From Hesseltinella vesiculosa (Eukaryota > Mucoromycota > Mucoromycetes > Mucorales > Cunninghamellaceae), in assembly GCA_002104935.1 (NCBI GenBank), contig MCGT01000056.1, positions 1 through 64,000 of the forward strand: a stretch of DNA of 64,000 nucleotides. Direction: 5' to 3'. Shown piece after piece: positions 57,922-63,561 of this stretch (positions are counted from its first letter, which is position 1; every line of letters begins with the position of its first letter). The translations under genes were made by a program, and so were the position numbers. Below the pieces are notes generated by a model, which was given only the letters and a program-made list of their open reading frames with translations, did not search any database and was not told the DNA's origin.

Positions 57922-58572
57922 TCCCTTCCTACATTTTTATGCACTGGCAATAACAAGACGTGGCTGTTTACCACTTGAAGAGACTGTTAATATCGAATAT
58001 GAAATAAATCACGTGCCAGCCTGATCAATTCGCATATGATTGATCCAATGGACGAATCTCTTTGTTGCAACAGACAATGACATTCTGACCCAGTGGATTG
58101 CCTACATGAGGGAAAGTCTTGATTTTGATAGAAGGGTCTTAGAAAATGTCGATGCATCGGAGAGGGAAAGGTCCCCCTTTTCGTCTTGCAACATGCAGGT
58201 GCCATGGCTGATAGACGTGATAGTACAGTATAATAAAACCTGTGCATTATTAGGAATTAATAAAATAACTTACCACTGTAAGCGAGTGGTTTTTGTATAC
58301 ATGCAGAAAAAATAAAAAGAGGGAAAAAGAATGAAGAAAAAGAAAGGGAAAGAGAAAGAGAAAAAGCAATAGACAGGGGAAAAGCGATCGACACTACAGA
58401 AAAAAATCCAATGTTAGTAGCCAATCAGGCGCTTGAATTATTTTCATCTAAACTTACTTTATTCATTTTCATGACAAACCTGCCAATAAAAAAAATCAGC
58501 ATTTCCTCTTCACATTCTGCCTCAGGCTTACGTAAATAAGCTGGTTTATTGGCCAGCGAGGTAAGGTATTCA
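57922..58572. other. Gap between ALG1 and the Fanzor gene; possible guide-RNA region
   Basis: There is no confident gene. A short plus-strand frame (58040-58315: NDILTQWIAYMRESLDFD) hints at a decayed coding piece but has no start context or splice support. 58315-58400 is an almost pure purine stretch on the plus strand. The part next to 58572 lies directly 3' of the Fanzor gene, which is where relatives encode their guide (omega) RNA. Confidence 0.35.
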
Positions 58573-61500
58573 TTAGTTAGGGTCCCGAGACGAAGAAGCA
58601 ACTGCTGAATTTTGTTGGTGTGGTGATGATTGGTCGGTGGAGGTGGATGGTGGTGGGCAGAACAACGCTGGGCGAGGCAATCCTTGGAGGGCAGTCTTAC
58701 CAAGACGCAACATATTCCAAGCCGCAAGCTTGTCCCTGTCCCAGTTGATTTTACAGTGTTGGCACTGTAGAACCGACCACAAAGGCATGCTTGCACCTCG
58801 CAGGAATGGGTCACCGACGGTCTTGTGTTCAAGGTCTTTTTCATCACACATTGGACAGACCTGTAAAAAAAAATGAGATAGAAAAAAAAGGTCATTTTGC
58901 GCTTCATTTTTCCCTCTCCTCATGATTTACCTTGCTTGTGTTGTATTCATTTGTTTTTGTAACAAGAAGTAACCCTTGCTTTTCCGCTATTTTGAGTGCT
59001 TTGTACACTTTTCCGGAGCGAGTGGACTTTTTCCCTCTACGGGTTTGCGCAAACAATGCACCACCATAGGCAATCACTGGAAGTTTGCGGCTATAAAAAA
59101 AGTTAGTCCAGGCATCACACCTTTTTTTGTGTAGTGCATACCTATCATAGTCATCCTTCTGGTGTTTGTACTTGTTACCGCCATGGACGAAGTGGTTAAC
59201 GACTTCTGCGCACATCTTCTTGTCCCCACAATAGTCCAGGAACCGATGCAGGGTATAGTCGTCAGCAAAATGTTCGGTGATGTCATCAAGGTGTTGGAAT
59301 ACGTAGATGGTGCGCTGAATGAAGCGATCAGGATGACTAGTTTTTGCTGGTGGTATACGCGTGAGGATCTCCTCCATGCCAGAATCTTTGAGCCAACGTT
59401 TTCGAATGCATGAGCGCCCATGTCGACCAGAGAGTGATAGCCATTCATTATTCGAGAATCGCATGTACCGACCATGCCAACCGTTGGTGCTGTTGCTGCT
59501 GTGTTCAGTGCCTGGGGCAGTGCGATCATTCCCCGGGAGGTACTTGACTTCTTGAGCAGATGTGTAAAGCTCACTATGTCCTGGATCGACTCCATACAGC
59601 TGCATACGTTCTTGTGGTTCATCATGCAAGTCGTCCATTTCGAGATCGGGAAGTTCAATTTGGGGTGCGCGCTTGCCATAAATAAATTCCAATTGAAGCC
59701 CATCAGTGCGAACACGATTGGAAAATACCAAGGAGGCAGGATCATCATCTTCCTCTTCATCGCTATCGCTACTATTGATTTCAGTCAATTGAGTATCGCT
59801 GTCATCGTCCAGGCGTGTTGTCTCGTCAGTAAATCTGCCTTGATCTTGATCACCATCGTCGATTTCGCCCTCCGATGGGGTATTGTGAGCACCATCAGAA
59901 CCGCCAGCAGGGTTGCCGATGTCATTAGCCTCTCCATCAGTAACACTGCCACTATCATCTTCGGCATCACCGTTGTCAACATCGGGATCAGCACCACCAG
60001 CGTCATCATCACTGTCGCTGTCAGTTTCAGTGAGCGTTGGATAATGCAAAAATGCGGCAGTACTAAAAAAAAATCAGTCACGATTCCTGCCATCACAATG
60101 TTCCTCAGTTACCATTTTCGAAGACGAGCCTTCTGAAAGTCCAGGTAGGTGAAAAAGAGAGTGGCATCGCGAGCAAGGCGAATATAAGGATGAGAATGGT
60201 CACCCGACGGCACAGTCACGTTTATACCGGCTTGCTTGAGAATTGACCGAAATGAGTAGGCATCCAAAGTGATAAACCGGCGACGAAAGGCCAGAGTCGG
60301 CACAAGGGAAAAGAGGGCTGTTGACTTGGATTGCCTCATGGTGGAGGAGGAGAAGCAAAGGTCTGCTGATATGTCAGTGCCAGCCAGTTTCGCCTTGGAG
60401 TTTGCCAACTTTACACGAAGGCCAAGGACGAGATCTGACAGCCAGGTCTTAAATTCTTCCGGTAGACTCCAGGGGATGTCAATTGGATTGTATGGGTGCT
60501 CCAGCAATTGCATCATGCCCTTGAATACTCTTTGGCGACAGCGACGAGGCAGCACCTGATAGTCCATGTTAGATGATAGTAAGAGCTTCATGGTGATTGT
60601 GTCCATTTGATCATGCACATCGTCATGCCCCATCTCAGATGGTTCCAGGTCGTTGCTTTGTTCCATTTCTTGCAATAGTCGGTAAAGTACTTGCAAATAT
60701 GTTCCGGGGCTTGCAGTAAGTTCCTTCAGCGTAACTGGACTTGGACCAAAGTTCAGGGTTGAGATAAATGTTGATACGATCGTTCGCAAGAGATCAGGGC
60801 TATTTTCTGACAGTGGCTCAACTTTTTCTTGACGGGTGACAGTGTCGTAAATACTCTGGCATGCGTTCATAATATAACCGGACTTTGGCATTTCCTATGT
60901 CAAAAAAAAGTGAGCAACTCGCGCCTTCTTATTTTCTCTCTCTTTCTTACTGACCTGGCCGTCAGACAGCTGATCCTTGAGGGTGTTGACCAAGCGAAAG
61001 CGAATATACTTGATACACTTTTCTTCAAAACGTTCAGTCACAGCCAAGAGATTGATTTGGGCTAACTCATCCGCCATTTCAGAAATCATGTTACTAGCAC
61101 CCTTGATCCAATATAATTCGAAGCGGCAGTCACCCAAGAGAGACTGGTAATGGTGATAAATTGCTGTAGGATCAGGTATGTTCGAGTTGGGGGAGGTCAC
61201 AGCCTTGCCAGTCACCAGTTGGCAGATCCCATAGAAAAAATCTTTACAGAATACAGTATCGTTGACCACAGAACCCTCAGACATGACATGAAGTACATAA
61301 TAGTTGAAGAACGACTGGGCGCAGATGGAGACATAGCGGATGTGATCGACCCATAGGAGGATGGTTTCTTGGACGTCCATCTTTGCTTGGCGTTGGTCTT
61401 GGATATTGTCTTGGGTCATGTTAAGAGCATGACAAAGAGATATCTTGCGAACACGGGTTTTGAAATTGGTACCAAGCAAGAGAGACTGGAGATCCTTCAA

Positions 61501-61904
61501 CTTGAATTTCTTGGCCCTTTTTTTCCCATCAGGGTTCTTCTGCTTTTCCTTGCGGGCCATGGAGCCAGCCTTACGTAGAAGCTTTCTGGCCCTTTTGAGC
61601 TGGGTTTTGGACTTTCGTTTGCCACCTTTAAAAGTAAATGTTAGAAACTGGCAATGTAGGGGCTATCAATACTAACGGTTGAAAGGACAATCTGCTCGCT
61701 TGTGCCCTAATCCATGGCACAATGTACACTTTAAACCTAATGGAAGAGAATGAGATCATGAAGCAACGCGTTTTAAAAAATAAACCAACAAGGTCAATAA
61801 TAGGATTTACCTTTGAGAATGTAGTATTTCCTCATTTTCAAGTTATACAGCCAAGTCTTATTTGCATCTATTCGTAATTGCCTTCTTCTTATATGACGCC
61901 CCAT
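58573..61904 (-). CDS. Fanzor-type RNA-guided nuclease with CCHC knuckle, 991 aa
   Basis: Seven exons (61904-61811, 61736-61677, 61625-60955, 60894-60113, 60062-59142, 59090-58931, 58860-58573) join in phase throughout to 991 residues. An arginine-rich start leads to a CCHC knuckle (C35, C38, H43, C48; CTLCHGLGHKRADC). Residues about 275-535 are helical. An acidic Asp/Ser tract (about 545-645) precedes RTDGLQLEFIY, then the RuvC-I motif YGVDPGHSE with D695. Near the end are LPVIAYGGALF, TNEYNTSK (E891), a zinc ribbon (C898, C901, C929, C932) and the RuvC-III motif NWDRDKLAAWNM with D939. This order is that of Fanzor proteins, eukaryotic TnpB relatives. RNA-guided DNA cleavage is known for some and inferred here. 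No terminal inverted repeats were found, so it may be resident rather than mobile. Confidence 0.87.
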
Positions 61905-62547
61905 TTTAAATGTAAATAAATGCTGAAGCAAGGTTGTAAAAAAAAAGTAAAGAATGAAAAAGAACTCTTTGAACGCGCAGCACCCTTTTCAATAAACCCC
62001 GCTCGTTGTTTTTCTTGCCTCTGACACCCTCTCTCTCTCAACTTTTGTCGAGTCTTTTGTCGACAAAAAAAAACCTTGTCAGCACAACTGGCCATGCTTT
62101 TTTGACCTTGCTACAATTTTTATTACCTTTAACACTGTCCTCCTCCCACGCGTGATATCCATCTACAAGGAATAAGTGGGGCATGATACTTTCAGATCAC
62201 GAGATGAAAAGTCAAACGACGAATATCCAGTTTGGTAACTTGAAAAGGCTTGAAGTGGAAAGTATTCATTTTTGTATTGATAATAAATATAACCCATTGA
62301 ATGCGAACTTAAAAGGAAAAGTACATGCAGCAACTCTCACTTTTTCTTTTCTCCATTCACGTCGCCTTCATGAACCAGTGCTAATCTTCATGGTATTTTT
62401 GTACCTCGTTTCGTTGGTTTAATCGCGCTTCCTCACTTTAGTATTATCAATATTAAACCGTTTTTAATTGGCTCACCATTTCGCATTTCCCGTGAAGCGA
62501 GAAAAAGCTGGCATTCGAAAAATTTTCGCACTTTTTGTTTCTAAAAA
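61905..62547. promoter_or_regulatory. Divergent intergenic region, Fanzor gene and PNP
   Basis: This 643-bp gap separates two divergent starts. A plus-strand frame at 62183-62422 (NIQFGNLKRLEVESIHFCID) looks partly protein-like but ends in a hydrophobic tail without homology, and I do not call it a gene. A short inverted repeat, TTTTGTCGACAAAA, is at 62057-62070. Confidence 0.4.
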
Positions 62548-63561
62548 ATGACCACTGAAATTACAGACGACGTCTACGAAAGAAGCGTACAATACATTCG
62601 ATCAAGTATCCCAGAATGCTTCAAGTCTGTTAAATTGGGAGTGATCTGTGGAACAGGTTTAGGCTCTTTAGTTGAGACTATTGATCCTTCCTCCAAAGTT
62701 GAATTGTCCTACTCAGACATTCCCGGATTTGCAGTTAGCCAAGGTTAGCTTTAACAAAATTGCCTTGAATTCATAAATAACAACCTCTCGTTTATAGTGG
62801 TAGGACATGCAAGTAAACTTGTGTTCGGTCATATTGGTGAATCCTGCACTCCAGGTGTGTTTATGGTTGGACGATTTCATTTTTACGAAGGACATTCGAT
62901 GCAGCAATGCACATTGCCCGTTCGTGTGATGAAGCTCCTTGGCGTGGAAACCCTGTTGGTCACCAATGCTGCAGGGTCCTTGCACCCAGATCATAAGATT
63001 GGTGATTTGATGGTGATCAAAGACCATTTGTTTTTCCCTGGTTTGGCAGGCAACCACCCACTTCGAGGACACAACCTGGATGTGTTCGGTACTAGATTCC
63101 CTGCCATGTCGGATGCTTACGACTGCAAGTTGCGAGAATTGGCATTCTTAGCTGGCCATTCCGTTGGGGTGTCGCTAGATGATATGCATGAAGGAGTTTA
63201 CTGCATGGTGTCGGGACCAAGCTTTGAAACGAGCACGGAGAGCCGTCTAATCAGATGTTATGCTGACGCAGTTGGCATGTCCACTGTCCCGGAAGTTATT
63301 GTTGCTCGTCATTGTGGTATGAAAGTCTTAGGCATCTCTCTATTGACGAACAAGGTCGTCGTTACTTACGGGAAAAACGCGAAAAAGAGTGCTTTGGAAT
63401 CCCTTGGCTTACCCTCGGATCATCTCGAAGATGAAGTCAAGGAAGCCGATGAAGTAGTTGTGGCGAATCATGAAGAGGTGCTGGAAACTGGCGCTGCCAG
63501 AGCTGCTGATATGCAACGCTTAGTCGTAAAACTTGTCGATTTGATTTCTTTAAAGGAATAA
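62548..63561 (+). CDS. PNP1: Purine nucleoside phosphorylase
   Basis: Two exons (62548-62743 and 62798-63561) give 319 residues in phase. Signature stretches of the trimeric PNP family are present: VICGTGLGSLVETI (phosphate loop), VGHASKLVFGHI, GRFHFYEGHSMQQC, LLVTNAAGSL, YCMVSGPSFET and LTNKV. The enzyme splits inosine or guanosine with phosphate into base and ribose-1-phosphate in purine salvage in the cytosol. The donor GTTAGC is unusual but the junction VSQ-VVGHASK fits the family exactly. The length is near the usual 290-310, with a few extra residues at the C-terminus. Confidence 0.95.

Follow-up and report, generated by a model that had tools for sequence, protein, structure and literature searches.

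A gene on the minus strand of a 64,000-nucleotide stretch of the Hesseltinella vesiculosa genome (NCBI GenBank assembly GCA_002104935.1, contig MCGT01000056.1, positions 1 to 64,000; hereafter the window, whose numbering we use throughout) encodes a protein that its sequence identifies as a divergent member of Fanzor1. The source organism is a fungus of the Mucorales (family Cunninghamellaceae). Fanzors are eukaryotic RNA-guided nucleases, relatives of the CRISPR nucleases. The gene spans 58573..61904 and belongs to a repeated element of about 4.1 kb; its product carries, ahead of the Fanzor core, a Cys-Cys-His-Cys (CCHC)-type finger of which relatives are found on other Fanzors of the same genome. 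We give this identification a probability of about 0.85, a figure that excludes the role of the finger. All features described below lie on the minus strand.

The first-pass annotation had proposed an apparently intact Fanzor-type nuclease gene of seven exons, and splicing of the window sequence bears out this structure. Read from 61904 to 58573, exon 1 (61811..61904, 94 nucleotides, phase 1 at its end), exon 2 (61677..61736, a phase 1-1 mini-exon of 60 nucleotides carrying the finger), exon 3 (60955..61625), exon 4 (60113..60894), exon 5 (59142..60062), exon 6 (58931..59090), and exon 7 (58573..58860, including the stop codon) join in phase into 991 residues followed by a stop. The six introns measure 74, 51, 60, 50, 51, and 70 nucleotides and are all bounded by GT-AG. 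This model was built on the DNA sequence, its splice sites being judged by comparison with a paralogue. A search of the genome with the window protein recovered close copies and a distant pair on contig C12, one of which, L045, is spliced to 903 residues and is identical to the window protein at 275 of 829 aligned residues (33%). L045 has one intron more than the window gene and a same-phase counterpart for each of the six window-gene introns. Introns 2, 3, 4, and 6 occupy the identical alignment column, and introns 1 and 5 are shifted by 5 and 23 columns, within gapped stretches. As these counterparts occur in a paralogue only 33% identical, they support the splice sites of the window gene. 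Intron 5 (51 nucleotides) contains no stop codon, and exons 5 and 6 could thus be read through in frame; its splice sites and the paralogue argue for excision.

The assignment to Fanzor1 is carried by profile matches and by the arrangement of motifs. The Pfam model PF07282 (TNB zinc ribbon) matches the window protein at E 6.5e-8, with 33.1 bits against a cut-off of 26.3. It also matches P0001 and P0002 (30.3 and 28.7 bits), two H. vesiculosa proteins already labelled TNB-domain proteins in UniRef. They were the two relatives recovered when the protein set was searched with the C12 paralogue, and an alignment search returned the same two. At E<=10, a profile of three sequences retrieved five sequences from PDB, the top two being GtFz1 of Guillardia theta (0.002) and SpuFz1 of Spizellomyces punctatus (0.0053), with alignments covering the RuvC and zinc-ribbon region. 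Searched with the window protein, a large protein set yielded no relatives elsewhere (7993 candidates scored), and scans of bacterial and archaeal genomes and of viral contigs yielded none either, a result that has no bearing on other fungi.

The molecular fingerprint of Fanzors is a DPG motif plus a glutamate six residues ahead of the zinc ribbon, and Fanzor1 is characterized by a TDG motif located in its WED domain (PMC10711439). On the spliced protein, DPG occurs within VDPG (RuvC-I, 59579..59587) and supplies the predicted catalytic D695, invariant in a three-sequence alignment (A2). The putative rearranged RuvC-II glutamate (E-alt), E891 (58946..58948), stands in NEYNTS and is followed by YNTSKV and then C898, the first residue of a four-Cys zinc ribbon extending to C932 (58753..58857; CxxC at 898-901 and 929-932). 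The predicted RuvC-III residue D939, within DRD (58732..58734), is likewise invariant in A2. D695, NEYNTS, the four-Cys ribbon, and D939 had all been reported earlier and were recovered at the same residues. TDG is found at residues 655-657 (59699..59707), with RTDG invariant in the three-sequence alignment, and its position ahead of RuvC-I would place it in the WED domain. Together with PF07282 and the PDB profile, the DPG, E-alt, and TDG motifs sharpen the earlier Fanzor-type assignment to Fanzor1. The motif of the Fanzor/TnpB superfamily, D-x(125,275)-[TS][TS]-xx-C4 zinc finger-x(5,50)-RD (PMC3627910), is present in all four proteins compared (the window protein, C12a, P0001, and P0002), with bounds for the inner gap of the C4 finger set in the present analysis; in the window protein the first gap, counted from D695, is 198. 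None of the four matches the strict spacing of the regular expression of PMC10711439, which that paper presents as a search device for TnpBs with Fanzor-like signatures and not as a definition. With two gaps widened, all four match, these gaps being 193 and 27 residues in the window protein.

SpuFz1 and GtFz1 show the same order of DPG, E-alt, TDG, four-Cys ribbon, and RuvC-III. Compared with them, the window protein adds the N-terminal finger, a basic stretch, and a long acidic linker ahead of RuvC. The strongly basic stretch directly follows the finger (approximately residues 53-94, 61498..61623); residues 52-110 comprise 24 lysines or arginines and 3 aspartates or glutamates in 59, a composition that could serve nuclear localization or nucleic-acid contact. 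The acidic low-complexity linker (residues 547-650, 59720..60031) has 38 aspartates or glutamates in 104 residues and is mostly absent from the L045 paralogue.

Beyond what the first-pass annotation had described, the gene is not a lone one. It is contained in one of 17 copies of an element with common ends (58390..62494; 5' end CACGGGAAATG..., 3' end ...CTGTAGTGTC) in the H. vesiculosa genome. Some copies are truncated, for example on C25 by the contig end and on C67 by internal deletion. Queries made of the element ends gave 16 genome matches for the 3' end and 23, including relics, for the 5' end. In six of the 17 copies (window, C14, C26, C1b, C41, and C3), the frame is uninterrupted and the splice sites are GT-AG. 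Over long alignments, the copies show about 96-98% identity to the window copy, with more variation in the 5' non-coding pieces. The ratio of nonsynonymous to synonymous substitution rates (dN/dS) ranges from 0.22 to 0.50 across the 28 pairs of eight copies. Pooled by region, and drawn from few changes per region in related sequences, the ratio is 0.07 in residues 1-60, 0.38 in residues 60-540, 0.63 in the acidic linker, and 0.13 in the RuvC part. The linker has the highest value among these four regions; the ratio of the C-terminal tail is undefined (dS 0, dN 0.023). The protein is under constraint, and the element that carries it has probably been mobile recently.

The finger occupies residues 35-48 (CTLCHGLGHKRADC, 61687..61728), where it had been placed before, and reads C-x2-C-x4-H-x4-C followed by PFN. 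Its four putative metal-binding Cys and His residues are intact in all 17 copies. The pattern arose in 6 of 20,000 shuffles of the window protein, and in 2 of 20,000 within the first 100 residues. Both the window gene and the L045 paralogue encode the finger on an exon of its own of phase 1-1, of 60 and 72 nucleotides, respectively. In the public gene models of P0001 and P0002, the N-terminus consists of a short helix-rich stretch plus the finger. C12a, P0001, and P0002 have the form C-x2-C-x4-H-x7-CPFN, with seven residues in place of four before the last Cys. A 24-residue query of the C12 form matched at least 51 places in the genome. Twenty-two of these adjoin C12-like Fanzor sequence and a further 13 lie 2,663-2,730 bases upstream of a PF07282 match on the same strand, a group recognized by place and score alone, which brings to 35 the matches standing beside Fanzor sequence; no finger/PF07282 pair has the wrong orientation. 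The addition of a finger upstream of the Fanzor core, claimed in the first-pass annotation for this gene, is thus extended to other Fanzor groups, and on these matches the finger is lineage-shared.

Several results weigh against the reading proposed here. Alone, the window protein matched nothing in PDB at E<=1, and a two-sequence profile reached SpuFz1 only, at E 1.8; because of these two results we describe the protein as a divergent member. NCBIfam gave no match at E<=1 for the window protein; for P0001 and P0002 it gave weak TnpB-type matches far under the cut-off. Structure models of a 274-residue piece of the window protein and of P0001 aligned with P0002 were unusable (predicted local distance difference test scores of 36.1 and 35.5). 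As to the finger, the low dN of residues 1-60 reflects few changes only. No Pfam knuckle model attains its cut-off, zf-CCHC (PF00098) scoring 14.8 bits against 20.8, and the best model, zf-C2H2_10, stays at 21.3 against 26.2. Sixteen of the 51 finger matches are not tied to a Fanzor. Conversely, an upstream finger match was found for 13 of the genome's PF07282 matches (at least 46) and for none of the other 33, which is compatible with a true lack as well as with a diverged finger. By analogy with other Fanzor elements, the guide (omega) RNA is expected at the right or 3' end (PMC10432273, PMC10711439), that is, in the 3' non-coding end at 58390..58572. Folding of this end is ordinary (z scores of 0.03, -0.16, and -1.55 for three folds, and 1.74 for the gene end). 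Variation per site in 25-nucleotide bins is 0.020-0.075 there and 0.007-0.035 in the introns; because this end is no less variable than the introns, a strongly constrained 3' RNA is disfavored. Rfam gave nothing at gathering level on the window; in the surroundings of the element, the sole match at E<=1 (E 0.36) lies inside the gene.

By analogy with the Fanzors of solved structure, the element-encoded Fanzor1 would act as an RNA-guided DNA endonuclease. The REC, WED, and RuvC parts of the protein would hold a guide RNA derived from the 3' end of the element, and target DNA would be cut beside a short adjacent motif at an active site presumably formed by D695, E891, and D939. Cutting of empty or sister sites could help the element persist, as has been discussed for Fanzors (PMC10432273). 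To this scheme the lineage adds one module, the small finger (C-x2-C-x4-H-x4/7-CPFN), which has a phase 1-1 exon to itself and is followed by the basic stretch. Most likely, the two together provide an additional nucleic-acid contact, either with the guide RNA or with DNA near the adjacent motif.

The first-pass annotation had called the finger a CCHC knuckle and drawn on the RNA or single-stranded DNA binding of such knuckles. The spacing of the window protein, C-x2-C-x4-H-x4-C, is indeed that of zf-CCHC, but the seven-residue spacing of its relatives and the Pfam scores below cut-off weaken the analogy. For these two reasons we speak of a CCHC-type finger and not of a zf-CCHC member; it would bind zinc through its Cys and His residues. 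The same two features favor the main rival for its role, namely a protein-protein or structural module, or a stabilizer of the N-terminus, making no contact with RNA or DNA. Known Fanzors bear lineage-specific added domains. One of them is found in PpFz1 of Parasitella parasitica, also a member of the Mucorales, in which the lineage-specific domain added to Fanzor1, FRI, binds cyclophilin (PMC11423790). FRI is inserted in RuvC, whereas the window finger is N-terminal. The very basic stretch adjoining the finger suits contact with nucleic acid, and we regard a non-contacting finger as a real alternative that nevertheless falls clearly short of even odds. A broader proposal must be worded tentatively, and we would sooner bet against it than for it: that a whole clade of Fanzor1 nucleases in this one Mucorales species evolved its own type of exon-encoded finger as a dedicated contact with guide RNA or target DNA. 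This would be a new accessory domain of an RNA-guided nuclease, kept through divergence of the remaining protein to about 33% identity and multiplication of the elements to dozens of copies. Being small, separable, conserved, and encoded by a separate exon, such a finger would illustrate a way of extending the binding of guide or target.

Whether such a scheme still operates depends on the state of the element. In this strain it might by now be dead, with intact frames that are recent remnants and with no guide RNA being made. Eleven of the 17 copies are not cleanly intact, the 3' end lacks special folding or conservation, and beyond the Fanzor gene the element holds only about 590 nucleotides on the 5' side and 183 on the 3' side. 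The six intact frames, a dN/dS that stays under 1 throughout the 28 pairs of eight copies, and the high identity of the long aligned pieces speak for activity, and we consider a dead element unlikely, if by a smaller margin than the next two explanations. Domestication as a host gene, which a multi-exon structure and purifying constraint might suggest, is very improbable for a gene present in 17 copies at different places with common element ends. A chance motif or a wrong gene model, with a finger exon foreign to the protein, could be imagined for a gene model built on DNA and an exon of 60 nucleotides, but is just as improbable given that the paralogue has a finger exon of phase 1-1 in the equivalent position, the finger of P0001 and P0002, and the rarity of the pattern in shuffled sequences.

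Multi-copy Fanzor1 elements are known in Mucorales, in Mucor, Rhizopus, and Phycomyces (MCi, ROr, and PBl; PMC3627910). MCi-2 also has fuzzy 5' ends, like the window element; compared with the MCi, ROr, and PBl transposons of that paper, the window element shows no clear duplication, and the alignment of its two ends scores no higher than that of many shuffled sequences. The sole zinc motif described for Fanzor in the available portion of PMC10432273 is in the NUC domain. A finger query in the C12 form retrieved no Fanzor chain from PDB at E<=10. PpFz1 was also absent from the matches of the PDB searches, its presence in the copy searched being unchecked. A literature search returned no link between Fanzor or TnpB and a zinc knuckle, nor between Fanzor and CCHC, most subscription papers lying outside that search.

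At the gene end, synonymous sites vary less than elsewhere: across 15 of the 17 copies, third positions are variable at 1 of 45 synonymous sites in codons 946-991 and at 129 of 866 in codons 1-897 (p 0.014, uncorrected, with a cut-point picked post hoc; other cut-points gave 0.011-0.037). This is a hint only that a functional RNA might overlap the end of the gene (58573-58710).

The copies have a sharply defined 3' end, ...CTGTAGTGTC (58390), with GTGTC in all 15 readable copies and A as the next base in ten of them. At the 5' end, where 12 of the 17 junctions were readable by script, ten copies start with CACrGG; the window copy begins with CACGGG (62494). Just outside the start lies a flank motif (62495..62505 in the window). 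The exact form TCTCnC[TA]C precedes the element in 8 of the 12 readable copies and close variants do so in the others, the window copy deviating in the last base. This motif may be a target preference, an adjacent motif, or the outermost sequence of the element itself. Among ten copies we observed no clear target-site duplication, without any consistent length or place. The longest word common to both flanks averaged 4.1, 4.9, and 6.0 nucleotides in windows of 15, 20, and 30 nucleotides, as against 3.43, 4.23, and 5.06 in mismatched flank pairs; in this descriptive comparison, the true pairs are slightly higher each time. A 7-nucleotide word is common to both flanks of copy C3. Terminal inverted repeats, suspected by eye, were rejected: the 60-nucleotide ends align at a score of 10, which 237 of 2000 shuffles also attain, and the 13 listed inverted pairs include none that links the two element ends. 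CACTA-like termini, considered from the ...TAGTG end, were dropped. A Helitron partner was also rejected, as the one Helitron_like_N match in the genome is on contig C9, where no element copy is found among the places recovered.

Short stretches resembling the 5' end occur at L048:2142-2482, L049:239-416, and L050:167-280, and no Fanzor gene was recognized beside them. They represent either old copies that have suffered deletions or a small relative that is non-autonomous; those in L048 and L049 have the same 5' start, without the TCTC part. About 54 bases from the 5' end of the window element (62495-62548), a gene begins whose start codon marks what we take to be a purine nucleoside phosphorylase, and the insertion may have altered the promoter of this neighbor.

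The 46 PF07282 matches represent many Fanzor-like zinc ribbons of several families. No copy of the window family is among these listed places; in that family, an intron interrupts the ribbon domain. Since the finger is detected on some of its Fanzor families and not on others, this genome offers a natural setting to study what Fanzors do for their transposons. C12-like Fanzor copies and finger matches are often no more than about 5 kb away from a contig end (C1, C4, C11, C15, C23, C29, C34, C41, C45, C46, C54, C62, and C72), and others are away from contig ends, for example, on C25, on C26, and at C45:583649. Those at the ends may be telomere-proximal, or the contigs may break at these repeats. 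Finally, a weak second Fanzor-like RuvC stretch (GIDPG) is found upstream of the C12 Fanzor gene (L045 reverse complement, 538-648; L046:410-919).

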